Part shown: positions 6,124 through 30,906 of the stretch, piece by piece | How positions within the stretch are numbered: position 1 is the first letter of the stretch | Layout: every line of letters begins with the position of its first letter | Assembly (NCBI GenBank): GCA_002704915.1 | Contig: PAIP01000055.1 | Location: 1-44,430 of the forward strand | Length of the DNA: 44,430 nt | Reading direction: 5' to 3' | Source: Parvularcula sp. | GTDB lineage: Bacteria; Pseudomonadota; Alphaproteobacteria; Caulobacterales; Parvularculaceae | Position numbers and translations under genes: made by a program | The notes under the pieces: model-generated | What the model saw: only the letters and a program-made list of their open reading frames with translations | What the model was told of the DNA's origin: nothing | Databases searched by the model: none

Positions 6124-7299
6124 ATGAACAGCAATTCCGAAGCTTTCGAGCACTGGATTCGCACCGCTTTTGTGGAGATGAATACGGAACTCGAAGAGCT
6201 CTATTTCAAGCAGCCGCATCGTGAACAGGTGGAGGGCGTCGGCGACGCCATCAAGGCGCAAATCCGCGATGAAGGCCATGAATTCGTGGTGCGGCTTCTG
6301 GCCGAGGGCAACACGGATGAAGGTTTCGACAACGCTTTCGACCTCCTTGGTGATCTGGGCCTTTATCTCGGCGCGCTGCGCCGCCATGAACTCACCAATC
6401 CGGCGCGTGAAGAGAAGTCTCCCTTTCCCGAGGCCTCGGCGCTGGGCCTTCATATCGCCGCCTCGGTCGGCATGGCGCCGCGCTTTGCGACGGCGCATCT
6501 TGCGACCAGGAATGCCGCGGTCAATGGCCGGCAGAAGAGTTTCACGACGCTGAAAGATGAATTCCTTTTTCTCGATTACAATACGCGCGGCATCTTTGCG
6601 TTCATGCGCTGCGCCGATCTGCTCATGCGCGTGCTTCCGCTCGGCGTTTCCCATCCGGTGACGGAAACATTACTCAATGATGCGGCAAACGCCCTGCGCG
6701 ATGTCATCAAATATAATGACGCCCTTTTCAGGGAACTCGATACGGACCGTTTCTTCTATTCTGTGCGGCCTTATTACAAACCCTATCGCGTGGGCCGGCA
6801 TGAATATCGCGGCGCCAATGCGGGCGATTTTTCCGGCATCAATGAGATCGATATGTTGCTGGGGCTTTGCCAAGCGAACGATCCCTATTACGCGCAGCTA
6901 CTCGTGGACAAGATGCTGTTCATGACGCCTGAAGATCAGGCGAGCTTGCGCGACTGCATGCGCCGGCGCAGCCTTCTGGCCCAGTTCCTTGACGTCGCGC
7001 CGACAGCGTCGAAAGAACCCTGGTTCAAGCGCAATGCGGCGGCGTTTCTGGAAGTCTGCGAGCTGCATGGAAAAACGGCCGCGCAACACCACAATCAGCT
7101 TGTGAAATCCTTCATTGAAAAGCCTTCATCGGCGCTTGAAGCCGACAAGCTGGCCCAGGTGACGGCGAGCGGACCGCCGCTTCAGGTGCTGATGCGCGCC
7201 TTGGAAATTTTGCGCGACATGCGTCTTGCTGCAGACCGGGACGATATCCGGACGAGCTATAAGGACATCGAAGCGTTGAAGGGTTACGTCGCGGCCTAG
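6124..7299 (+). CDS. PrnB-like protein of the indoleamine dioxygenase superfamily (DUF1864 type)
   Basis: A 391-residue mostly helical protein. From memory of the Pseudomonas pyrrolnitrin enzyme PrnB it shares DLGLYLGALRRH (about 77-88) and the block VRPYYKPYRVGRHEYRG (214-230), which matches RPFYEPIRVGGQSYLG of PrnB. A His pair at 322-323 falls where PrnB carries its heme-ligand His. PrnB-type proteins bind heme and act on indole substrates. Whether this one does is inference, since no other pyrrolnitrin gene is present. A GGAAGGA ribosome site precedes ATG 6124. Its TAG stop shares the palindrome CTAG with the stop of the convergent coiled-coil gene. Confidence 0.7.
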   Translation: MNSNSEAFEHWIRTAFVEMNTELEELYFKQPHREQVEGVGDAIKAQIRDEGHEFVVRLLAEGNTDEGFDNAFDLLGDLGLYLGALRRHELTNPAREEKSPFPEASALGLHIAASVGMAPRFATAHLATRNAAVNGRQKSFTTLKDEFLFLDYNTRGIFAFMRCADLLMRVLPLGVSHPVTETLLNDAANALRDVIKYNDALFRELDTDRFFYSVRPYYKPYRVGRHEYRGANAGDFSGINEIDMLLGLCQANDPYYAQLLVDKMLFMTPEDQASLRDCMRRRSLLAQFLDVAPTASKEPWFKRNAAAFLEVCELHGKTAAQHHNQLVKSFIEKPSSALEADKLAQVTASGPPLQVLMRALEILRDMRLAADRDDIRTSYKDIEALKGYVAA

Positions 7300-13014: not shown

Positions 13015-13091
13015 GTACACCTCGCCTTAACCAGCGGTAAGGGATAAATGCACCCATAAGCTGAATGAACTATTAACCACGTTTATCTCGT
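13015..13091. promoter_or_regulatory. Divergent flgB / fliI promoter region with two TTAACCA words
   Basis: The 77-base AT-rich gap between divergent flgB and fliI holds TTAACCA at 13027-13033 and again at 13073-13079, on the plus strand. This matches the left half of the Caulobacter CtrA site (TTAA-N7-TTAA), which drives early flagellar genes there. The right halves are poor (TAAG and TATC at N7). The word also occurs by chance elsewhere, including inside the SulP gene, so CtrA control is a suggestion only. Confidence 0.4.
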
Positions 13092-16220: not shown

Positions 16221-17420
16221 TTATTGGAACAGTCCGAGGATGGCGTTGGGTGACGAATTGGCGATGGACAGCGCCTGAATGCCGAGCTGCTGCTGGACCT
16301 GCAGGGATTGCAGGCGAGCCGACGCGGCTTCCAGGTCAGCGTCGGTCAGGGCGCCGATGCCGGTTTTAAGGGCGTCGGTCAGGTTGGAGACGAATTCGTT
16401 CTGAATTTCGATGCGTTTTTGAGCGGAGCCGAATTCAGCGGAAGCGTCGACCGCTTCCTGGATGAGGCCTTCGATAGAGACGAGGGCCGTGGCTGCGCTG
16501 GCGGCGGATGAGACATCGAGCGAGTTCAGGTTGCCGAGGCCGCCGCCGGTCCCGTCGGTGACGTTGACTTCGATGCCGACCGTGCCGCCGGAATTGTTGG
16601 TGATGTCGACTTGGGCGTCGACGCCGCCACCGCCGGCGGTGAAAGCGACGGTCACGCCGGCGATGCCGGCGGCGTCGATCAGGTTGGTAATGCCCTGACC
16701 GACATCGTCATGGTCGTCGCCGGTCTGCACCGTATAGGTGAATTTGCGGCCGTCGATGCGGACTTCGTAAACATCGCCCGCGGTGAAAACCGCCCCGGAA
16801 TCGATGTCGAGCGCGAAAGTATTGGTGTCGGCGACAAGCTGGGCGGCGGAATCGCCGCCGCCATTAACGCCGGTCGTCGTGGCGTCGAGGCCCGCCACAG
16901 CCGCGCCAGCCGTCGTTTCCAGGCTGTAGGCGTCGACTGTGATGAAGCTCGCCGTCACAGTGCCGCCGGAGTCGCGGTCAAGCGACGCCAGGAAGTCCGT
17001 GGACGATGTCCCTTTTAGGAAGTTCAGGCCGTTGAACTGCGCCGCGTCGACGATGGAGTCGATCTGCTCGCGCAACTGGCCGATATCCGTCTGAATTTTC
17101 GTGCGATCGATATTGTCTTCCTGCGCCGCGACGATGAGGCCTTTCATGTCCACAAGAAGCTCGGTGATTTTTTCCGCCGCGCCGCGGGCGACGCCGGCGG
17201 ATGAAGCGCCGAGATTGAGCGACTGCGAAATGGCCTCGAAGCCTTTCACGTCAGACTGCATAACCGTGGAGATCGCGAAGATCGCCGCATTGTCCTTGGC
17301 GTTGGCGACTTTTTTACCGGTCGAGATCTGTTCCTGAACCATGGAGAGGCCTTTATTGACCGTACGCAGGTTCTGCAGCGCGATCATCGCGGACGTGTTG
17401 GTAAGGAGGCTGTTAGTCAT
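16221..17420 (-). CDS. Flagellin (copy 1)
   Basis: A 399-residue flagellin. The N-terminal D0/D1 helices begin MTNSLLTNTSAMIALQNLR and the C-terminal D0 ends QVQQQLGIQALSIANSSPN. The middle has a surface domain with AGDVYEVRIDGRKFTY and a Gly/Asp/Val-rich part, low in aromatic residues. The start at 17420 matches copy 2. Upstream in-frame ATGs at 17426 and 17447 are less likely, as GGAG is nine bases before 17420. The two copies share nearly all of the first 150 and last 90 residues, so they are tandem duplicates. The stop codon lies in a hairpin loop (16211-16235). Confidence 0.97.
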   Translation of the reverse strand: MTNSLLTNTSAMIALQNLRTVNKGLSMVQEQISTGKKVANAKDNAAIFAISTVMQSDVKGFEAISQSLNLGASSAGVARGAAEKITELLVDMKGLIVAAQEDNIDRTKIQTDIGQLREQIDSIVDAAQFNGLNFLKGTSSTDFLASLDRDSGGTVTASFITVDAYSLETTAGAAVAGLDATTTGVNGGGDSAAQLVADTNTFALDIDSGAVFTAGDVYEVRIDGRKFTYTVQTGDDHDDVGQGITNLIDAAGIAGVTVAFTAGGGGVDAQVDITNNSGGTVGIEVNVTDGTGGGLGNLNSLDVSSAASAATALVSIEGLIQEAVDASAEFGSAQKRIEIQNEFVSNLTDALKTGIGALTDADLEAASARLQSLQVQQQLGIQALSIANSSPNAILGLFQ

Positions 17421-17427
17421 TTTCATC

Positions 17428-17444
17428 GACTCCGAGTTGGATCG
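17428..17444 (-). promoter_or_regulatory. Flagellin 1 leader box next to the ribosome site
   Basis: The leader reads CGATCCAACTCGGAGTC on the minus strand, just before the start codon. Flagellin 2 has CGATCCAACAGGAGTC at the matching place. Outside this box and the GGAGT ribosome site the two leaders differ, so the shared CGATCCAAC may be a regulator contact, for example for FlbT. The binding itself is inference. Confidence 0.5.
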
Positions 17445-17587
17445 CAAAAAACAAATTCAAGCTTTAAATATCCGGTTAGGGATAATAAGCTCTTAACAGC
17501 CCGGCTTTTTTGGCCCCGGTCTCATTTGCCGGCGCCCGCATCCGGCGCGATCGGTCCCGAAGTCGGTTTCAAACCTCCGTTTTCAGA

Positions 17588-17655: not shown

Positions 17656-18855
17656 TTAACGGAACAGGCCGAGGATCGAGTTCGGCGCGGCGTTCGCGAT
17701 CGACAACGCCTGGATGCCGAGCTGCTGCTGGACCTGCAGGGACTGCAGGCGGGCCGAAGCGGCTTCCAGGTCGGCGTCGGTCAGGGCGCCGATACCGGTT
17801 TTCAGCGAGTCCGTCAGGCTGGTGACGAAATCGTTCTGAATTTCGATACGCTTCTGAGCGGAACCGAATTCAGCCGATGCGTCCACAGCTTCCTGAATGA
17901 GGCCTTCGATCTTGACCAGCGCGTCAGCGGCGCCGGATGCGGTCGAAACGTCAAGGCCGGCCAGGTTGCCGAGGCCGCCGCCCGTGCCGTCCGTGACAGT
18001 CACTTCGAATGCGACAGCGCCGCCAGTGGTGTTGGCGATATCGAGCTGACCGTCGGTCGTGCCGTCGCCGGCCGTCCAGGTCGCGGCAATGCCGGAGATG
18101 CCGGCGGCGTCGAGCATGTTTTTGAACGCCTGACCGATATCCGTTTCGTCATCGCCAGTTTCAACCGCATAGGTGAATTTGCGGCCGTCGATGCGAAGCT
18201 CCCAGACGTCGCCAGCAGTTTGCGTGTCTGTGCCTTCGAGATCGAGAGCGAAGGTGTTGCCAGTGGCGACAAGAGCCGCAGCGGAGTCGCGGTTCGTGTT
18301 GACGCCCGTGGTTGTGGTGGCAAGGCCCTGAACCGCAGCGCCAGCCGTCGTTTCGAGGCTGTAAGCGTCAACCGAGATCGAGCTCGCGGTGACGTTGCCG
18401 CCGGAGTCGCGGTCAAGCGACGCCAGGAAGTCGGTGGAGGTCGCGCCTTTGAGGAAGTTCAGGCCGTTGAACTGCGCCGCATCGACGATCGAGTCGATCT
18501 GGTCGCGCAGGTTGCCGATATCCGTCTGGATTTTCGTGCGGTCAACGTTGTCTTCCTGAGCCGCCACGATGAGACCTTTCATCTCGGTGAGCAGCTCGGA
18601 CACTTTTTCAGCCGCGCCACGGGCAACGCCGACAGCGGCGGAACCGAGGTTGAGCGACTGATTGATGGATTCAAAGCCTTTAACGTCCGACTGCATAACC
18701 GTCGAAATCGCGAAGATCGCCGCGTTGTCCTTGGCGGTTGAGACTTTTTTACCGGTTGAGATCTGCTCCTGAACCATGTTCAGGCCTTTGTTGACCTGAC
18801 GCAGGTTTTGAAGCGCGATCATTGCAGACGTGTTGGTGAGAAGGCTGTTAGTCAT
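17656..18855 (-). CDS. Flagellin (copy 2)
   Basis: A 399-residue flagellin, paralogue of the gene just downstream and the same length. D0/D1 ends are near-identical to copy 1. The central domain keeps AGDVWELRIDGRKFTY but diverges in between, with Thr-rich stretches. GGAGT lies seven bases upstream of ATG 18855. A weak sigma-54-like site may lie at 18959-18974 (TGGC, then GC at the right GG-N10-GC spacing, but lacking the usual TTGC). The stop lies in the loop of CTGTTCCG/CGGAACAG (17647-17667). Differential use of the two filaments is possible. Confidence 0.97.
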   Translation of the reverse strand: MTNSLLTNTSAMIALQNLRQVNKGLNMVQEQISTGKKVSTAKDNAAIFAISTVMQSDVKGFESINQSLNLGSAAVGVARGAAEKVSELLTEMKGLIVAAQEDNVDRTKIQTDIGNLRDQIDSIVDAAQFNGLNFLKGATSTDFLASLDRDSGGNVTASSISVDAYSLETTAGAAVQGLATTTTGVNTNRDSAAALVATGNTFALDLEGTDTQTAGDVWELRIDGRKFTYAVETGDDETDIGQAFKNMLDAAGISGIAATWTAGDGTTDGQLDIANTTGGAVAFEVTVTDGTGGGLGNLAGLDVSTASGAADALVKIEGLIQEAVDASAEFGSAQKRIEIQNDFVTSLTDSLKTGIGALTDADLEAASARLQSLQVQQQLGIQALSIANAAPNSILGLFR

Positions 18856-22132: not shown

Positions 22133-22648
22133 TCAGTAACTCTGAATGCCCAGATCGAGGATGAGGACATCCAGCGCCGCATCGCCCATGATCTCCCGGC
22201 TGGTTTCGAGGAGGGCTGCTTTCATATATTGCATCTTTTCGACATCTTCGAGCATTTGCGGCAGCATATCTTCCCCGGCCAGTCCAAGCAGGCGCGTTAG
22301 AATTGCGTCGCGCAGGCGCGGTTCAAGCGAATAGGCGCCTTCGTTCAGTGAATTGTCCACCATGATGTTAATGTCGAGAATGACCATGGATTTCGGTTTG
22401 CCGCGCTGGACGACAGGAATGACGAACTGGCGGCTGAATTTCATATAGGTGACGCCGCCGACATCCTCTTCGGCGCCATGACCGCCGCCTTTTTTCTTCT
22501 TGTCTTTGCCGTGTCCGTCTTCGGATTCCTCGTGAGATGCTTCCTTGTCGCCTCCTTTCGACATCATGGATTTGGCGAAAAAGCCGCCGCCGCCGCCGAG
22601 AGCGCCGGCGACAACAATGATGATGACAGGGAGCAGTTTCTGAAGCAT
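22133..22648 (-). CDS. FliL family basal-body protein (second copy)
   Basis: A 171-residue FliL-family protein. One N-terminal membrane helix (about 6-24) is followed by a His/Asp/Glu/Lys-rich periplasmic linker (31-62, with KKKKGGGHG). A FliL-type domain follows, with FSRQFVIPVVQ, MVILDINIMVD and LEPRLRDAILTRLL. It lies last in the motA-TPR-flgF-flgG-flgA-flgH operon, 13 bases after flgH. A longer FliL is encoded at 29981. Known FliL rings surround the stator, so two copies may serve two rings or two stator types. Confidence 0.88.
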   Translation of the reverse strand: MLQKLLPVIIIVVAGALGGGGGFFAKSMMSKGGDKEASHEESEDGHGKDKKKKGGGHGAEEDVGGVTYMKFSRQFVIPVVQRGKPKSMVILDINIMVDNSLNEGAYSLEPRLRDAILTRLLGLAGEDMLPQMLEDVEKMQYMKAALLETSREIMGDAALDVLILDLGIQSY

Positions 22649-22661
22649 CGAAGGCCTCCGT

Positions 22662-23423
22662 CTAGAAAGGCGAGATCATGTCGATGATCTGCTGGCCATA
22701 GCGCGCGCGCTGCATATCGGAAATCTGTCCGCGCCCGCCGTAAGAGATGCGCGCATCGGCGATCTTGTCATAGGTGATCGTGTTGTTGCGCGCGATGTCT
22801 TCGGGACGGATGATGCCGGCCACCAGCAATTCCCGCAATTCGTAATTCACGCGGATCTCCTGACTGCCAGTGATCGCAAGATGCCCGTTCGGCAGCTCGT
22901 TGATAACCGTGGCCGCGACGCGCAGGGTGATTTTTTCCTCGCGCTTGATCTGGCCGTCGCCGGTTGAGTTCGTCGTCGAGCTTGTTCCGATAGCGGGGTT
23001 GAGGCTCGCCCCTCTCGGCAGAATATCTTCCGCAAGCGAGTTCAGTCCGAAAAAGTTCGATACGGCCATATCGTCATCGGATGAGCGCGAGCGCGTTGTA
23101 GAATTCTTGATTTCCGCTTCCTCGTCGATTTCGATCACGACCGTGACAATATCGCCGGCGGACCGCGCGCGGCGGTCGCCGAAGAGCGAGGAGGGCCCCT
23201 GGCGCCACAGGGACGCTGTCGTCACTTTCGCCTCGGTCGGATGCACCGCCTTGGGCGGCACATCGTAACGGCGCGGGTCCGGCGCCGGCATGGGATTGCG
23301 CATGTCGCCCACCGGCGAAATCGATGGCGGGTTAAACATGTGGTCCGTGCGCGACGCGCAGGCGCCCAGTGTCAGAAGGGGGGCCAGCATAGGAACGGTG
23401 AGGAGGAGCAGTTTCTTGTTCAT
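22662..23423 (-). CDS. flgH: L-ring lipoprotein FlgH
   Basis: FlgH, 253 residues, forms the outer-membrane L ring around the rod. It has a lipoprotein signal with lipobox TLGAC (Cys near residue 22). The conserved blocks are LFGDRRARSAGDIVTVVIEI, the Gly/Thr/Asn-rich middle, KREEKITLRVAATV and LPNGHLAITGSQEIRVN, and the C-terminus GGRGQISDMQRARYGQQ. The start overlaps the flgA end. The P-ring gene flgI, often next to it, is absent from this operon. Confidence 0.97.
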   Translation of the reverse strand: MNKKLLLLTVPMLAPLLTLGACASRTDHMFNPPSISPVGDMRNPMPAPDPRRYDVPPKAVHPTEAKVTTASLWRQGPSSLFGDRRARSAGDIVTVVIEIDEEAEIKNSTTRSRSSDDDMAVSNFFGLNSLAEDILPRGASLNPAIGTSSTTNSTGDGQIKREEKITLRVAATVINELPNGHLAITGSQEIRVNYELRELLVAGIIRPEDIARNNTITYDKIADARISYGGRGQISDMQRARYGQQIIDMISPF

Positions 23424-23923
23424 TGGGTAACCGCCTTGTTCGGCCCTGTGATCACGGCCGTGAGAATGATTTTGGAATTGAGGTTCATGACGCGCACGGT
23501 CTCGCCGACTGCGCCTGCATCGAGGGCGCGGCCTTCGGTTGTGATCATCAGGGGCCCGCGCACAAATTCGAGCTGGACGATTGCGTTGCGCGCAACCACC
23601 GTCGGCGCGCCCACATCGTTAAGCGACAAAATCTTGTCTTTGTAGACAGAGCGTTTCAGCTCCATGCCGACGAAAAGGTCGAGCGCCGACGCGTCGCCTT
23701 CCTCGACGAAGAGATCGGAAGAATGCAGCACTGTGCCGGCGCGCAAGTTTTGCGATGCTTTCACCACTGCGCGGTTTTTCTTCACCGGCATGACCGATGT
23801 GGTCGAAAGCTCCTCGCCCGCAGGCGCCGGCGCTTTCGGCGAAACCGCAGCCATCTTTTCCTGCGCTCCGGCCGGTCCGGCGATCAGGGCGAAGATGGCG
23901 AAAAGGGAGAGAAGACGTGTCAT
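23420..23923 (-). CDS. flgA: P-ring assembly chaperone FlgA
   Basis: FlgA, 167 residues, is a periplasmic chaperone for P-ring (FlgI) assembly. It has a cleavable signal ending AGPAGAQ, a Pro/Ala-rich spacer, then the SAF/FlgA domain. That domain contains ASQNLRAGTVLHSSDLF, the hinge VGMELKRSVYKDKIL, and VRVMNLNSKIILTAVITGP at the end. It is shorter than enterobacterial FlgA, as in many Alphaproteobacteria. It overlaps flgH by 4 bases and follows flgG by 5. Confidence 0.93.
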   Translation of the reverse strand: MTRLLSLFAIFALIAGPAGAQEKMAAVSPKAPAPAGEELSTTSVMPVKKNRAVVKASQNLRAGTVLHSSDLFVEEGDASALDLFVGMELKRSVYKDKILSLNDVGAPTVVARNAIVQLEFVRGPLMITTEGRALDAGAVGETVRVMNLNSKIILTAVITGPNKAVTQ

Positions 23924-23928
23924 AAAAC

Positions 23929-24714
23929 TTACCGGATCTGGGTTGTGGAGCCGAGCATCTGGTCGGCAGCGGAAATGACTTTCGAGTTCAGCTCATAGCC
24001 GCGTTGCGCCTCGATCAGGTCGGCGATCTGCGCCACCACATCGACGGAGCTTTCTTCAAGGAAGCCTTGGCGGATGGAGCCGCGACCGTCGAGACCAGGC
24101 TCGCCGGGGAGCGGGGCGCCGGAAGCTTGCGTTTCGCGATAGAGATTGCCGCCAATGGCTTCGAGGCCTTTTTCGTTGACGAAGGTGGTCAGCACGATCT
24201 CGCCGATCTGCTGGCCCTGGGTCTGGCCGTCGAAATAGGCGAACACTTCGCCGCTATTGTTGATGGTGATGGATCGCGCATCCTGAGGGATGGTGATGTC
24301 GCCGGCGAGCGGGAAGCCGTCATTGTTGACGATCAGTCCTTCGCCGGTTTTCTTGAAGGTGCCGTCGCGGGTGAACGCTGGGTCGCCCGAGGGCAGGGTC
24401 ACTTCGAAATAGCCTTTGCCCTCGATGGCGATATCGAGATCGCCGCCGGTCTGGCGCAATGAGCCTTGCGCGTGATTGACCGAAATCGCCGCCGTCCGGA
24501 CCCCGAGCCCGAGTTCAACGCCCGCCGGGGCCACAAGGCCGGTGGAGGATGAGATGGCGCCGGGCGCGCGCAATTGCTGATAGTGCAGATCGGCGAACTC
24601 GGCGCGCCGCGCGTCATAGGCGGTCGTGCTCATATTCGCGATATTGTTCGACACGACTTCAACGCGCGTCTGCTGCGCGTCCATGCCGGTGGCGGCGATT
24701 CTCAAAGCTTGCAT
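23929..24714 (-). CDS. flgG: Distal rod protein FlgG
   Basis: FlgG, 261 residues, forms the distal rod. It starts MQALRIAATGMDAQQTRVEV followed by SNNIANMSTTAYDARRAEF. The middle has DIAIEGKGYFEVTLPSGDPA with FTRDGTFKKTGEG. The C-terminus GFLEESSVDVVAQIADLIEA and QRGYELNSKVISAADQM is diagnostic. AAGGAGG lies seven bases before ATG, 29 bases after flgF. Confidence 0.97.
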   Translation of the reverse strand: MQALRIAATGMDAQQTRVEVVSNNIANMSTTAYDARRAEFADLHYQQLRAPGAISSSTGLVAPAGVELGLGVRTAAISVNHAQGSLRQTGGDLDIAIEGKGYFEVTLPSGDPAFTRDGTFKKTGEGLIVNNDGFPLAGDITIPQDARSITINNSGEVFAYFDGQTQGQQIGEIVLTTFVNEKGLEAIGGNLYRETQASGAPLPGEPGLDGRGSIRQGFLEESSVDVVAQIADLIEAQRGYELNSKVISAADQMLGSTTQIR

Positions 24715-24743: not shown

Positions 24744-25460
24744 TTATAGTTTTCTCATGGCGTCGACGGTTTTCTTGACCCGCTCGTCTTCATCTTTCAT
24801 GAGCTGCTGATTGAGCTCATAGGCGCGCTGCACCTCGATCAGACGCGAGACTTCGATCACCGCATTCACATTCGATTCTTCCAGGAAACCTTGACGGATC
24901 TTGGGGAATTCCACGGGCTGATATTCTTCATCCGTGCGGAAAAGATTGTCGCCTTCGCGCGCCAGCGCTGTCTGCGGCGCGGTCACAAGGCCGAGCTTGC
25001 CCACAGGCGCGCCGTCCGCGGCGATGGTGCCGTCCTGGGCGATCGTGATGTTCGAGGCGTCGATCGGGATCGCTACGGGCGAGCCACCGTCGCCAAGAAC
25101 CCGAAACCCTTCATGCGTGACGAGCTGACCTTCCGCGTCCATGAGGAAGCTGCCCTGACGGGTCAGGCGCTCGCCGCGCGGGGTTTCCACGAGGAAAAAT
25201 CCTTCGCCTTCGATGGCGACGTCAAAAGGGGCGCCGGTGCTGGTGAAAGAGCCCGGGGTTACATCGAAAAAGCGGCCGGCGACATTGGTCTGTGACAGGC
25301 TGTAATCATCCTGACCAAGGCGCTGCACATATTCGGAGAACAAATAGCCTTCGCGTCGATAGCCGGCCGTGGAGGCGTTCGCGATATTGTTTGCGACAGA
25401 GTTGAGCTCCTTCATGAGACCGGCCTGCTTTGAAAGCATGGCGTAGACACTGTTGGTCAT
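24744..25460 (-). CDS. flgF: Proximal rod protein FlgF
   Basis: FlgF, 238 residues, is a rod subunit related to FlgG. MNSVANNIANASTAGYR-type residues appear in the N-terminal helix (here LNSVANNIANASTAGYRREG), followed by DVAIEGEGFFLVETPRGE, LTRQGSFLMDAEGQLV, and the C-terminal GFLEESNVNAVIEVSRLIEV with RAYELNQQL. Its ATG overlaps the stop of the TPR-like gene by four bases, which ties that unknown protein to rod assembly. Confidence 0.96.
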   Translation of the reverse strand: MTNSVYAMLSKQAGLMKELNSVANNIANASTAGYRREGYLFSEYVQRLGQDDYSLSQTNVAGRFFDVTPGSFTSTGAPFDVAIEGEGFFLVETPRGERLTRQGSFLMDAEGQLVTHEGFRVLGDGGSPVAIPIDASNITIAQDGTIAADGAPVGKLGLVTAPQTALAREGDNLFRTDEEYQPVEFPKIRQGFLEESNVNAVIEVSRLIEVQRAYELNQQLMKDEDERVKKTVDAMRKL

Positions 25461-27853
25461 CGTCCGTCTCCCGTCACGGCTTCGATGCCGCGCTCCATGA
25501 AGTCTTTTTCCTTTTTCACGCCAGCGGCATAGTCGGCGAGCGCATCGATGGCGCGGACGCTGACGGCCGGCGCGCTCTTGAACATGTGCGCGAGCGCCGC
25601 GAGCGTTTGCGGGTCGTCTGACAGCGTTTCACGCACCGAGGCGGGCAGGCCGTTTGCGCCGTTGTTGAGCGCGGCGAGGGCAGCGCGCGAGGCGGCGGCT
25701 TTTTCGCGCTCTTTTGGCGGCACGGCGTCGAAGGCGTCTGCGGTGAGCGCCCAGTCGCCCGCGCGCCAGGCGGCGGCGGCGAATTCATTATCGCCTTCGC
25801 CGCGGCGCAGGGAAGCTTTGATGAGCGCAATGGTCCCTGTGCGGTCATTGAGGCGTTCATGCGCCTTGGCTGCCACGACGCCCAGATCGGCGCTTGCCGC
25901 GCCCTGATCGGCGATTTCAAGCGCGCCATGGGGATCGCCGCTGTTAAGACGGGAAAGGGCGCGCACGGCGTCGGCGTCCGCGCGCCATTTTTCAGGCGCG
26001 CCTTCAAGCGCCGTGTCTACGAGCTCATTGGCGCCATAAGCGGCAAGCTCGCGCGCAACGGCCACATTCAAATCGCCATTGTCTTTCACATCCACGAAAT
26101 CGCGATAATGGAAGAAGGAGGAAACAGCGGCGAGGCGGGTTTTCGCATCGGCCATCAACCCGTTCATGATGAAGGATTGGGCAAGGGCGCGGCTTGCATC
26201 TTCGGCCCCAGGCGCCGCGTCGGCGGCGGCTTCCAGGACGGCGATGCTTTCGCGCATGCGTCCGGCGGCGACAAGCGCCTTGGCGCCGGTAAAGGAGGCG
26301 CGCGCTTCGGCGAGAGACGAATTGCGCCGTCCGCTTTGCGCGGCGATATCGTCGAGAAATCCTTCATAGGCCTCGTCGGCGCGCTTTTCATAATCGTCGG
26401 CGAGAATAGCGAGGGCGCGGGCCTGCAAGGGACCAGGCGTCTGCGCGATCTCTTTCAGTTCCTGGGTGACGACCGGCGCGCGCTGGGTGCTCGCTTGCGC
26501 GGCGGCGGGCTTTTCAATCTCGCCATGTTCGTTCGCTGCGGTCGGTTCGCCGAAATGTTCGGCCAGCGCATTTTCCATGATGGCGAGCGCGGGGCTGCGC
26601 TGATCGCCGCGTGCGGCTTTCGCCATATCGTAGAATTCCCGGGTGATCGTCATCTGATTGCGTTCAATCGCGTTAAGGCCGAGCCATTCGGCGATAGGCG
26701 CGCGTAACTCCGGGGTGATCGCTTTCAGCGCCGTCAGGTGTTTTTCCTGCATCGTGACGACATCTTCCTCGTCGACCGGCGCCGCGGCGGCATAGGCAAG
26801 TTCGCCAAAGGGACCGCAGTTGCGATAGGGCGACAGTTCACGCGTGGCGCGCCGGCGCGCGCCGGCGGCGAGATCGGCGAGCCCGGCCGCCATGGACATG
26901 TTGTGATCATTGGCGCCGCGTGCAGACGCAATCGCGGCGGCTTCCTCGAAAAAGCCGATATGGATATAAGCGAGGGCGAGGGTGGCGGCGATGTCCTTGC
27001 GTTCCTGCTCGTTGACGCTTGCGTCGAATTGCTGGCGCAGGCGGGAGATCGCCGAAAAGTCCAACGCCCCGTCTTCCGGCTCGTGGAAGAGAGACGGATC
27101 GACGCAATTTTCCTTGATCGCCGGCGTGGCGGCGATCAGCGGTTCGGGCGGCCCGCTTGCAGAAGCCAGAGCATGGTCTTCATTGTCATGATGATCCGGG
27201 TCGTCATTCTGCGCTGCATGGTCGGGCAGCGGCCCGGCATGGGGCGCCGGCGCCGGGGGCGTTTCAGAGATTGGCGCGGGCGAATGTGCAGCCGGTGTTG
27301 CTTCGACAGCGCCGCGTTTCTCGTCGATCTTGAGCTGGACAACGCCCTGGTGGCGCGCTTCGGCGAGCAACGCAATCATGCGGTCGCGCGCGGCGCGCAT
27401 GGATTCCGGCGTCGACGGTTCTGCGATGCGGGCGGCCTCGGACACCGGTTCCTGCGGCTCGGATTCATCCTCGGCCAGCGTTACTGGCGTATCGTTGAAA
27501 ATATCGATGACGATGGCGTCGTTCGCGCTTTTCGATGTGCGCACGGGGCAGTCGCAAGTCAGGGACAGAACAAGCGCGCGGGTTTCTTCGTTGTCGATGA
27601 TACGGGCGTTCAGAACGCGATGCGCCTTGCGTTTGTCGAGGATGTCGGAAAGTTCGAACGCGTAGTCCTTGCTCGGAAAGGTGATCTCGATTTTCCTGTC
27701 GGATGTGGCGATTTTCCAGTCCGCCGGCGCTTTCGGAATCACGAGACGGGAATAATCGCCATGCTCGCCTGCACGCACGGACAAAACGTCTTCCGCCGCA
27801 GCGGGCGCGGCGCAAGTGATGACTGCAAAAAGAAAAAGGGCTGCGCGGATCAT
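25457..27853 (-). CDS. Exported helical-repeat (TPR-like) protein of the motA-flgF operon, unknown motor or rod scaffold
   Basis: A 798-residue protein I cannot name. Residues 1-20 are a cleavable signal (AAPAAA). Residues 22-124 look beta-rich, with VRAGEHGDYSRLVIPKA and KIEITFP resembling AMIN-type domains; Cys100/Cys102 lie in TCDCP. A Pro/His/Asp linker (about 125-250, with DPDHHDNEDH at 218-227) leads to a body of about 530 residues of Ala-rich helical pairs, typical of TPR/Sel1-like solenoids. It has no membrane helix after the signal, so it should be periplasmic. ATGA overlaps join it to motA and flgF. Architecture and size recall Campylobacter PflA, and MotE upstream recalls rhizobial MotC, but homology is not shown. 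Confidence 0.8.
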   Translation of the reverse strand: MIRAALFLFAVITCAAPAAAEDVLSVRAGEHGDYSRLVIPKAPADWKIATSDRKIEITFPSKDYAFELSDILDKRKAHRVLNARIIDNEETRALVLSLTCDCPVRTSKSANDAIVIDIFNDTPVTLAEDESEPQEPVSEAARIAEPSTPESMRAARDRMIALLAEARHQGVVQLKIDEKRGAVEATPAAHSPAPISETPPAPAPHAGPLPDHAAQNDDPDHHDNEDHALASASGPPEPLIAATPAIKENCVDPSLFHEPEDGALDFSAISRLRQQFDASVNEQERKDIAATLALAYIHIGFFEEAAAIASARGANDHNMSMAAGLADLAAGARRRATRELSPYRNCGPFGELAYAAAAPVDEEDVVTMQEKHLTALKAITPELRAPIAEWLGLNAIERNQMTITREFYDMAKAARGDQRSPALAIMENALAEHFGEPTAANEHGEIEKPAAAQASTQRAPVVTQELKEIAQTPGPLQARALAILADDYEKRADEAYEGFLDDIAAQSGRRNSSLAEARASFTGAKALVAAGRMRESIAVLEAAADAAPGAEDASRALAQSFIMNGLMADAKTRLAAVSSFFHYRDFVDVKDNGDLNVAVARELAAYGANELVDTALEGAPEKWRADADAVRALSRLNSGDPHGALEIADQGAASADLGVVAAKAHERLNDRTGTIALIKASLRRGEGDNEFAAAAWRAGDWALTADAFDAVPPKEREKAAASRAALAALNNGANGLPASVRETLSDDPQTLAALAHMFKSAPAVSVRAIDALADYAAGVKKEKDFMERGIEAVTGDGR

Positions 27854-28719
27854 GCGGCCTCCTTCTTCAATTGCTTCAGGGCTTCGTCCATGTCGGAGAA
27901 GCCCGGCCGATCGTGACCTGGAATATTGCGGCGCGCGACTTCAACGCACATTTGCGGCGTGTGCATTTGAAGATGCGCCACGATGCATTCGCGGATGAGA
28001 CTGTAAAAACGCTGTTCCTGTTCGTTGACGGACAGGATGCGCGTCGCCAGCGGCCCCACCAGAGAGTAAGCGAGAAAGACGCCCAAAAACGTTCCCACAA
28101 GCGCGCCGCCGATCATCTGGCCCAGGACTTCCGGCGGCTTGTCGATCGACGCCATGGTTTTGATAACGCCGAGAACGGCGGCGACGATGCCGAGGGCGGG
28201 CAGGGCGTCGGCGATGTTCTGCATTGCGTGCCCGCCATGCATGCTCTCATGATGCATGGCTTCGAGTTGTTTCTCGAGAAGATCCTCCACCTGGTGAGGA
28301 TTGTCGAAGTTCATCAGGATAGAGCGGATCGTGTCGCAGATGATGTCGCAGGCGTCGTGGTCTTTCGCGATTTTAGGATAGCGCTGAAAGATGGTCGACT
28401 CGGTCGGGTTCTCAATATGAGATTCCGCCTGAACCGGACTTTCCTTGGCGATGCGCAGCAATTCGTACATCAGGCATAACAGGTCCTGATAATCCTTTTT
28501 CTTCCACTTCGGACCGGACAACGCTTTCATGACATCGCCGCCCGCATGTTTGATGGTGGCGAAATCGTTGCTCACGATAAAGGCGCCGACGGCGGCGCCG
28601 CCGATGATCATCAACTCATAGGGCAGGGAATGGAGAATGATCTCCATCTTGCCGCCGGCGATGATGTAACCGCCGAAGACCATGCCGAGCGTAATGACAA
28701 TGCCTAAAATGGGACCCAT
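27850..28719 (-). CDS. motA: Flagellar stator protein MotA
   Basis: MotA, 289 residues, is the cytoplasmic-membrane stator subunit that forms the ion channel with MotB. It opens GPILGIVITLGMVFGGYIIAGG. GGAAVGAFIVSN follows, then the cytoplasmic loop with the FliG-contact helix region, and two C-terminal helices containing LPALGIVAAVLGVIKTM and GGALVGTFLGVFLAYSLVGP. No motB follows; the next gene is the exported repeat protein (ATGA overlap). MotB must be encoded elsewhere, as in Caulobacter, where motA and motB are separate. Confidence 0.97.
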   Translation of the reverse strand: MGPILGIVITLGMVFGGYIIAGGKMEIILHSLPYELMIIGGAAVGAFIVSNDFATIKHAGGDVMKALSGPKWKKKDYQDLLCLMYELLRIAKESPVQAESHIENPTESTIFQRYPKIAKDHDACDIICDTIRSILMNFDNPHQVEDLLEKQLEAMHHESMHGGHAMQNIADALPALGIVAAVLGVIKTMASIDKPPEVLGQMIGGALVGTFLGVFLAYSLVGPLATRILSVNEQEQRFYSLIRECIVAHLQMHTPQMCVEVARRNIPGHDRPGFSDMDEALKQLKKEAA

Positions 28720-28820: not shown

Positions 28821-29357
28821 TTATCGATCCGTCTGGTTACGGTTCGCGAGGATGACGCTGACGAGATAGGCTTTCTGAGCGTCCATATTTGCAACAACCA
28901 GGGCGGCCTGTTCACTATTCATTGACGATATCAGGCCGGCGGCGAATTGCGGATCCATCTCATTGATGATCTCGCCGGCCTGGGCCGGCTTCATGCCTTC
29001 ATAGATGGCCGCGAGTTTTTGAATATCGGCGCTGCGGGCGTCCTGAACGACCGTAATCTTCTCCTGAAGCTCTTCATTCGCCTCTTCCAGCTCGGCGAGA
29101 CGCTTGTCGATCTGCGCTTCATAGGTTTTCAACTCCGCCTCGCGGTCGGTGATGGCCAGTTCGCGGCTGTCGAGCGAATACATGCGGTCTTTCACCGCAG
29201 CCGCGAGGTCGCCATCGACGCAGGAGGCGACGCCGGCGATGTCGTCCGCGCCGGGCAGGCCGGATTTCGCCGTCGCATCGGCGGCCATCACCGCAATGCG
29301 TCCTGCAAAGGAGCCGAAAAACATCAGCCCAAGGACTAAGAGCGCTCTCGTTTTCAT
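28821..29357 (-). CDS. motE: MotE-like flagellar protein
   Basis: A 178-residue protein with an N-terminal signal or anchor (MKTRALLVLGLMFFGSFAG), a charged coiled coil (about 65-115, rich in Glu/Leu) and a C-terminal MgtE-N-like helical domain with YEGMKPAQAGEIINEMDPQFAAGLI and MDAQKAYLVSVILA. This is the plan of MotE, which in Sinorhizobium is a chaperone for periplasmic MotC. It starts 3 bases after the DUF6468-like gene. The nearby exported repeat protein is the natural candidate client. Confidence 0.85.
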   Translation of the reverse strand: MKTRALLVLGLMFFGSFAGRIAVMAADATAKSGLPGADDIAGVASCVDGDLAAAVKDRMYSLDSRELAITDREAELKTYEAQIDKRLAELEEANEELQEKITVVQDARSADIQKLAAIYEGMKPAQAGEIINEMDPQFAAGLISSMNSEQAALVVANMDAQKAYLVSVILANRNQTDR

Positions 29358-29360
29358 GTC

Positions 29361-29969
29361 TTACCCGGCGAGCTTTTTCATTTTGCGCTGGTTGCGCGCT
29401 TTCATCAGCGCCGCCGTCACCTTGGTGGCGGGTTTCGCCTTGGCCTTGGCGGTTCTGGCGGCGGGTTCGTCATCCTCATCATCGTCGAGATAGGAGATGT
29501 TCTCGTCATCGATGTCGTCTTTGGGCGTCATGCGCGAGCCGGGGCCGTCTGGATCGGGATTGTCCACGAGGAAGAAGTCGATCTGCTCATCGAGACGCTC
29601 CTGCAGCGCTTTCGCCTTGGAAAGGCGTTCGTCCAGCTCGGCGCCGGCCTTGCCGGAAGCCTCATTGACATCGCGGATCGCGATTTCCGCAAGCTCTGAG
29701 ATGACGTCGATCATTTCCGTCAGTTGCGGCAGAATGTCCTTTGTCTCCTCGATCAGGGGCGTCAGTTCGTTGATGCTTTCCGCGCTCGATTCCTTGGCCA
29801 GCGTCACTGTGGCGCGCGCCTGGTCCACCGTATGGGACATGGTGGCGATGGTGGCGCCGAGGCCCTTTTCCGTGCTCTTCAAGGCTTCGAGCTTACGGCT
29901 GAGGATGAAGCAGTAAAATGTCGCGGCGCCCGAAGCGGCGAGCAACATAAAGTCAATGATCATCTCCAT
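29361..29969 (-). CDS. DUF6468-like flagellar membrane protein
   Basis: A 202-residue protein with one N-terminal membrane helix (MEMIIDFMLLAASGAATFYC) and a long coiled-coil region (about 25-125, with LPQLTEMIDVISELAEIAIR). An acidic segment (DDENISYLDDDEDDE) and a Lys/Ala-rich tail follow. It resembles the DUF6468 proteins found beside fliL and motE in alphaproteobacterial flagellar loci; that family name is from memory. No function is established. In related loci fliM is expected between fliL and this gene, but here only 11 bases separate them. Confidence 0.72.
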   Translation of the reverse strand: MEMIIDFMLLAASGAATFYCFILSRKLEALKSTEKGLGATIATMSHTVDQARATVTLAKESSAESINELTPLIEETKDILPQLTEMIDVISELAEIAIRDVNEASGKAGAELDERLSKAKALQERLDEQIDFFLVDNPDPDGPGSRMTPKDDIDDENISYLDDDEDDEPAARTAKAKAKPATKVTAALMKARNQRKMKKLAG

Positions 29970-29980
29970 TTGAGAGCCCC

Positions 29981-30769
29981 TTAGGTTAAGATAAATTCTG
30001 TGATGAGGACGTTCGTCACTGACGCGTCCGGAACGATGACGCGAATGCGCCGGAGGATTTGCGCGCGCAGGCGCGACATGGAAGACGGATCTTCAAGCAC
30101 CGTATGGTCGACCGACCGCAGATAGGTGTTGAGGACATCCTGGACGTAAAAACCGTTATCCAGCAGCAATTGCGCGCCTTCATCGTCGGTTTCGAATACG
30201 AGAGATACGCGCAGATGCTTCGACCGGCCGATGGGCTGGATCGAAATCACCATGGGCTCGAGGACGAGAAAGGTCGCATGCTCCGAATGCTGAATGGCGC
30301 CGAGGGGTTTGACGTCGCTTTGCGCGTCTTCGCCGCCGCCATGTCCGCCGCCATGGCTCTTGTCGGCTTTTTTCTTTTTCTTATCGTCTTCGCTATGACC
30401 TTCTTCGGCGAGGCATTCTTCAAGCGTCACCGCATGTTCTTCGGCTGCGTCATGTTCATCAGCCGCCTCGCCATGGGCGGCTTCCGCGCCGCGGTCGCTT
30501 CCATGGTCGTCTGCGGCCGGACTATGCTCAGCGTCTCCATGGCGGTCTTCTTGCGCCGCCAATAGCTCGGCGCAGGCGGGATTGATGTCCTTGGCGCCGG
30601 GCGTCAAAACAAATGCGGCGCCGCCCGCAACGCCGGCGGCGGCCACGGCTGCAATGGCCATGGGCACGAGGCCCATTTTCTTGCCTTGCGGCTGGGCGTC
30701 GTCCGCCTCGTTCTCGGCTTCAAGTTCACCAAGATCGAGATCGAGCGCTATGGGCGTGACGTCTGACAA
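29981..30769 (-). CDS. fliL: FliL basal-body protein with His-rich linker
   Basis: FliL, 262 residues, is a stator-associated membrane protein. It has a cytoplasmic N-terminus, one helix (about 33-56) and an unusually long periplasmic linker (60-150). That linker has nine His in residues 77-143, many Asp/Glu, a Lys5 run, and Cys66 and Cys119. The FliL domain (about 165-262) has FLVLEPMVISIQPIGRSKHL, LRVSLVFETDDE, and RLRAQILRRIRVIVPD near the end. It is first in fliL-DUF6468-motE. The linker resembles that of the second FliL at 22133 (K-run then GGGHG). Confidence 0.93.
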   Translation of the reverse strand: MSDVTPIALDLDLGELEAENEADDAQPQGKKMGLVPMAIAAVAAAGVAGGAAFVLTPGAKDINPACAELLAAQEDRHGDAEHSPAADDHGSDRGAEAAHGEAADEHDAAEEHAVTLEECLAEEGHSEDDKKKKKADKSHGGGHGGGEDAQSDVKPLGAIQHSEHATFLVLEPMVISIQPIGRSKHLRVSLVFETDDEGAQLLLDNGFYVQDVLNTYLRSVDHTVLEDPSSMSRLRAQILRRIRVIVPDASVTNVLITEFILT

Positions 30770-30906
30770 AAGAGGCGCACCTTCAGATTGCAGGGCGCAC
30801 CATATACAACCAGACGTAAACGGTTATTTAATCAAAGCCCCGGAAATTAACCAAGAAATTTCAGGAATGCGTTTTAGGCGCATCTCCAAACACCGGTGGC
30901 CTTCGT
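30770..30906. promoter_or_regulatory. Divergent fliL / fliF promoter region
   Basis: The 137-base gap between divergent fliL and fliF is AT-rich at 30825-30865. It holds TTAACCA at 30847-30853, on the plus strand about 55 bases before fliF, followed at N7 by ATTT instead of TTAA. The Caulobacter fliF promoter is a CtrA target, so this is a reasonable but weak candidate. I see no clear sigma-54 site. Confidence 0.4.

Follow-up and report, generated by a model that had tools for sequence, protein, structure and literature searches.

What does a large secreted protein encoded between the stator gene motA and flgF do for a flagellar motor? The question is raised by a stretch of 44,430 nucleotides from Parvularcula sp. 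(Parvularculaceae; contig PAIP01000055.1), the whole of which we call the window, and in whose minus-strand flagellar cluster such a gene, here named Q, is found. We propose that Q very probably encodes a MotK-type (PflA-like) periplasmic spoke of the flagellar motor, which helps to hold the stators or to switch them on. It is a member of a known family and, because the MotK-type family has already been described, not an undescribed ring. A sequence-only reading of this DNA had presented Q as uncharacterised, as a motor or rod scaffold and perhaps as a ring not yet described. The first term has to be withdrawn, since MotK of Cereibacter sphaeroides has the same architecture and gene order and is needed for rotation (PMC10954123). 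So has the last, MotK and CC_2058 of Caulobacter crescentus being already counted as PflA-like partners of the MotE/FlgY E-ring (PMC11870540, PMC13023049). The scaffold idea holds for the motor, on the PflA-like model, the motA-Q-flgF order and the position beside motE, while its link to the rod consists of operon neighbourhood.

Q is an open reading frame (ORF) of 798 codons with an ATG start, recovered from the ORF list and by translation with the limits given by the sequence-only reading. The ATGA overlaps reported there are also real, both being read on the minus strand: at 27850-27853 the motA stop meets the Q start, and at 25457-25460 the Q stop meets the flgF start. Q is not a chance ORF, because full-length identity reaches 50-74% in four relatives, and others down to 21% identity hold the same position in the locus. 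The minus-strand cluster reads fliL, a gene for a DUF6468 protein, motE, motA, Q, flgF, flgG, flgA, flgH and a second fliL-like gene, and contains the order fliL-pflI-motE-motA-motK that characterises motK, an order found as well at a Paracoccaceae locus (L116). The MotE of the window has the C-terminal MgtE_N domain (PF03448 over cut-off), a single Cys and similarity to S. meliloti MotE (blastp, E 4.1e-9). MotB_plug gave one match in the genome, on a different contig from Q.

The first 20 residues of Q have the look of a Sec signal peptide, as judged by eye. In the predicted model strands occur only at residues 23-119, with a short helix (69-73) inside this beta domain; helices are found at 149-168 and from 253 to 794, and residues 170-246 are disordered. 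The signal peptide described from the sequence agrees with inspection by eye, and the beta-rich N-terminal part and helical body agree with the model. The suggested likeness to PflA also stands, the model showing an AMIN-type beta-sandwich, a linker and a TPR superhelix, and the top PDB match of the whole model in a fold search is the Campylobacter periplasmic scaffold 9HMF. The AMIN domain alone matches the folds of PilQ, AmiC and PflA. Pfam and NCBIfam assign Q no family, TPR models falling below cut-off and the remaining matches being at chance level, and PDB sequence searches gave generic repeat proteins and chance rows only. By predicted model and fold matches, Q has both the AMIN-type N-terminal domain and the TPR-like helical C-terminal body of MotK.

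Several features of this architecture are conserved. In the alignment of Q with its relatives Cys250, Cys346 and Ala166 occur in 37 of 37 rows and Gly170 in 34 of 37, and Cys100 and Cys102 are present in all 26 rows with an AMIN domain. Two AMIN-less rows (L095 and L099) have an extra body cysteine, other extra Cys being read as signal-peptide or upstream ORF-extension residues. The domain Cys pair (CxC) is found in 25/25 MotK-type domain rows and is not among the commonest residues in 35 rows of large proteins. Cys250 and Cys346 may form a disulfide, and the helix 149-168 may be a docking segment. A metal site formed by AGEH together with CxC is conceivable. The His/Asp linker noticed in the sequence-only reading is real, yet local: residues 121-260 contain 8 His in Q and 7 in the closest relative (L002), and the remaining 22 of the 24 rows have 0-4. 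A metal-binding His linker was rejected on this variation.

The comparison with described proteins gives Q its most probable function. MotK (UniProt Q3IY86) is periplasmic, combines an AMIN-like with a TPR-like part, interacts with MotE and MotB2 and is essential for Fla2 rotation (PMC10954123). Q resembles it in the signal peptide, the AMIN-like N-terminal domain, the disordered linkers, the TPR-like body and the order fliL-pflI-motE-motA-motK; the two proteins are likened by synteny and description and differ in length (798 residues in Q, 652 in MotK). CC_2058, or FssB (UniProt Q9A6M9), is likewise secreted, with an AMIN-like domain and TPR repeats, and encoded beside motE (PMC7885107, PMC11870540); its deletion leaves filaments on cells that are non-motile (PMC7885107). 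The likeness is again one of description, and the genes that we read at the CC_2058-type place sit beside fliM and motE, not after motA. They encode mostly 978-1374 aa with one to three AMIN-like domains, and three encode 541-689 aa with none detected. MotE has been regarded as FlgY-like, and MotC, MotK and CC_2058 as PflA-like (PMC11870540, PMC13023049). PflA of Campylobacter jejuni shares with Q the AMIN-type beta-sandwich, linker and TPR superhelix, has an E-ring protein as partner (PMC12222027, PMC11870540) and is the rank 1 whole-model fold match; it differs in having no detectable sequence match to Q (PDB sequences, E<=1), and whereas its linker wraps PflB (PMC12222027, PMC11870540), that of Q carries a conserved helix. 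MotC of Sinorhizobium meliloti is also periplasmic and works with MotE (PMC13023049), but it has 434 aa and, according to a review, no AMIN domain; the relation to MotC raised by the sequence-only reading was not seen in the sequences (hhalign probability 1.1), and MotC was discarded as nearest relative. FliO with AMIN domains has been described (PMC12403147); this identity was considered and rejected, Q having by eye no FliO layout. By analogy with MotK and CC_2058/FssB, Q would be located in the periplasm, contact MotE and MotB and place or activate stators around the rotor; without it a flagellum would be built that does not turn.

The place of Q is well conserved in its family. A match was obtained in 21 of the 40 genomes searched, namely its own and 20 of 23 of the same genus, with none among the 16 that belong to other families in the order. 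The check proposed by the sequence-only reading, whether the motA-gene-flgF order is kept, gave a clear answer: 21 Marinicaulis-type genomes yielded 24 distinct Q loci (the window's own included), and Q lies between motA and flgF in 24/24. The named related loci are mostly from Marinicaulis and other Parvularculaceae. Three metagenome-assembled genomes (G006, G007 and G009; 84-85% complete, 3-7% contaminated) contain two divergent motA-Q-flgF loci each (L006/L022, L007/L025, L010/L028), which suggests two flagellar systems or mixed bins. Of 200 genomes in the order, at least 38 were matched by the 24-row Q profile at E<=1e-3. AMIN-less genes at the same place escape detection by the profiles A1 (24 rows) and A2 (17 of these rows plus L090 and L116), leaving G024, G028 and others unmatched, so the match counts are lower bounds. 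Alignment A3 was built from the window and 20 of the 23 named loci (L066, L067 and L083 left out), and A5 from 20 of the 21 A3 rows (L078 left out); the genes of L101, L103, L107, L110 and L111 were kept out of the profiles. The candidate L100:2241-3725 was dropped as a peptidase-like ORF by eye, and a plus-strand ORF of L103 is antisense to a real 1126-aa ORF.

Outside the order, the clearest relative is encoded on a plasmid of Paroceanicella profunda (the Paracoccaceae locus L116), where fliL, two hypothetical genes, motA, a gene for an 883-aa hypothetical protein (P0002), a hook-basal body gene in the place of flgF, flgG, flgA, flgH and fliL follow one another. By blastp the 883-aa protein is similar to Q in the AMIN domain (31% over 121 aa, E 8.8e-15), and hhalign aligns it with the profile of Q across 672 columns (probability 99.9, E 2.4e-34; all hhalign E-values are for single comparisons). 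The neighbour of this protein matches the window MotE (34%, E 9.6e-32). Q is accordingly homologous in sequence to a Rhodobacterales protein at the motK place. Across the class 48 of 385 genomes match by profile at E<=1e-5, the genome of Q counted, and gene context was read for 20 of the 47 others. In three loci (L152-L154) the order is fliL-pflI-motE-motA-Q, with an unidentified ORF and flhA coming next, while the products of the remaining 17 are large, at 978-1374 aa. In 18/20 loci a motE-like gene is close by on the same strand; none was seen in L170 and L171, the latter a 4.5 kb contig. One to three AMIN-like domains were detected in 17/17 large proteins, as expected since the profile selected them, the iterated AMIN-domain search being circular for such features. 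The large proteins beside motE match the Q profile more weakly (probability 96.7, E 3.7e-10, four sequences), and AMIN-less proteins beside motE give probability 90.1 and E 1.6e-6 (three sequences). What is added here is a bridge, at the level of sequence, that leads from the MotK-type family both to Rhodobacterales and to the large proteins with AMIN domains encoded beside motE; a literature search in a limited library found nothing on this family in Parvularculaceae. In the second flagellar cluster of G002 and G040 another protein of 564-612 aa precedes a second motA-like gene (L113:7489-9327, L114:7346-9040); it was dropped as a relative of Q for its weak profile match (probability 14.0).

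The AMIN domain is not present throughout. Ten loci that belong to other families or genera of the order have, between motA and flgF, a gene for a protein of 573-635 aa without it, and the body of these proteins still aligns with the Q profile, beginning at residue 150 (probability 100, E 1.9e-39, 511 columns). In the body tree the ten stand on one side of a branch (100/99); one more row without the domain, L088Q, is placed on the opposite, AMIN-bearing side, but as a long branch. Either direction of change is compatible with this tree, which is rooted at the midpoint, has a long branch for L088Q and brings long branches together; we prefer loss over gain since MotK- and CC_2058-type proteins carry the domain. 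The pattern of domain and gene absence suggests that the constant working part is the helix with the solenoid, not the AMIN domain.

Some results weigh against the assignment of Q as a PflA-like spoke. TM-scores for the whole-model match to 9hmf_K are low (0.17), and many repeat proteins unrelated to it are matched by the solenoid as well. When the AMIN domain was searched by itself, Foldseek ranked 9hmf_K 37th (E 0.063), behind small heat-shock proteins, AmiC being the sole match to pass E 0.001. A profile search of PDB sequences with Q gave no PflA chain at E<=1. The links to Cereibacter MotK and CC_2058 are made through synteny and published descriptions, not sequences. Furthermore, Q was undetected by two profiles in nine listed genomes of another genus of the same family (g12), and motA was found in 2/2 of those tested; Q is therefore possibly dispensable in some motors of the same type. 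The positives of the profile are no independent control here, 7 of 8 positive genomes having given rows to A4 and the eighth being a near twin. The loci concerned are L085, L086, L174 and L175. In both g12 loci read flgF directly adjoins motA. One genome of the genus (G045) retains genes of the DUF6468 and fliL types, an ORF that resembles MotB by eye, a large flagellar gene set and a MotE-like ORF recognised by alignment and eye, not by blastp; a large Q-type secreted protein was not seen among its ORFs within ~20 kb on each side (blastp and ORF starts, without a TPR profile).

That g12 appears to manage without Q would suit the rival explanation that survives best, to which we give perhaps a minor share of belief: Q as a stator-activating factor, which would open the MotB plug or periplasmic domain and form no ring. 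The authors of MotK leave MotB recruitment or remodelling open (PMC10954123), and the defect of the functionally related fssA mutant is suppressed when the MotB plug is disrupted by mutation (PMC7885107). However, the layout of Q is PflA-like, its best whole-model fold match is a structural scaffold, and the motE-like E-ring gene accompanies it at nearly all class loci read. That Q is chiefly a peptidoglycan anchor, with the AMIN domain doing the main task, seems unlikely to us: AmiC and PilQ are the best matches of this domain and peptidoglycan binding has been proposed for MotK (PMC10954123), but the same gene at the ten sister-lineage loci and L088 has no AMIN domain and retains helix and solenoid. 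Least credible is a role as periplasmic chaperone in the assembly of rod, P-ring or MotB, like the one originally suggested for MotE towards MotC, since, although Q overlaps flgF and precedes flgG, flgA and flgH, the motA side is kept where the flgF side changes (L152-L154), and loss of Q relatives paralyses flagella that are still built.

If Q is a MotK-type spoke, its family bears on the periplasmic rings of Caulobacter, where tomography showed an E ring, an outer ring, a 13-fold cogwheel and 11 stators, the composition and function of the rings being called elusive (PMC7534056). A bolder extension, rather doubtful at present, is that the MotK/FssB family makes up periplasmic density still unassigned in motors of Alphaproteobacteria, for example the thirteen-spoke cogwheel of Caulobacter (PMC7534056), and that it scaffolds stators with no PflB rim. 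Its essential core would then consist of the post-AMIN helix and a disulfide-stapled solenoid, the AMIN domain being optional and shed by some lineages, and one genus would have dropped the scaffold and kept the E-ring protein. The natural AMIN-less versions and the genus apparently without the gene offer ready-made comparisons for stator number, torque and peptidoglycan contact.

Table 1. Gene Q, its parts and its neighbours in the window.
Feature	Position	Strand	Basis
Gene Q, probable MotK/PflA-type periplasmic AMIN + alpha-solenoid protein, 798 aa	25457..27853	-	ORF, translation, homologs, context, model
Q: signal peptide, residues 1-20	27794..27853	-	by eye from translation; low-confidence in model
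Q: AMIN-type beta-sandwich, residues 22-120, AGEHxxxSR motif, C100-D-C102	27494..27790	-	domain-only model pLDDT 91.3; PilQ, AmiC, PflA matches; conservation
Q: conserved helix, residues 149-168, retained by AMIN-less relatives	27350..27409	-	model, conservation
Q: mostly disordered His/Asp-rich linker, residues 170-249; His content not conserved	27107..27346	-	model, row counts
Q: TPR-like alpha-solenoid, residues 250-794, with Cys250 and Cys346	25472..27106	-	model, fold matches, conservation; weak Pfam TPR_19 match below cut-off
motA (stator), 4-base overlap with Q	27850..28719	-	TIGR03818 362.4 bits, over cut-off
motE / FlgY-type E-ring protein; MgtE_N domain, single Cys46	28821..29357	-	PF03448 over cut-off; FlbB collar model E 1.7e-9, below its cut-off
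DUF6468 protein, pflI position	29361..29969	-	PF20072 over cut-off; position as pflI in PMC10954123
fliL, first copy, His/Asp-rich insert	29981..30769	-	PF03748 over cut-off
flgF, 4-base overlap with Q	24744..25460	-	TIGR02490 and PRK12690 over cut-off
flgG	23929..24714	-	translation by eye; annotated flgG at same place in L116
flgA	23420..23923	-	profile matches
flgH	22662..23423	-	translation by eye; annotated flgH at same place in L116
fliL-like, second copy	22133..22648	-	PF03748 just under cut-off
CtrA-like paired half-site, 1 mismatch, between fliL and fliF	30817..30831		match to consensus; weak

The two FliL-type genes bracket the operon and by eye have His-rich charged inserts like the Q linker. 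The motif TTAA-N7-TTAA with one mismatch, which we take to be a CtrA-like site, occurs 11 times in the window, compared with a shuffle mean of 3.61 and 0/100 shuffles with as many. Besides the site in the table these include 17482-17496 and 13062-13076, and several precede flagellar genes. A PrnB-family protein (PF08933, E 1.5e-172) is encoded at 6124-7299 on the plus strand and adjoins flagellar export genes. A tandem pair of similar flagellin genes was recognised by eye on the minus strand at 16221-17447 and 17656-18855.
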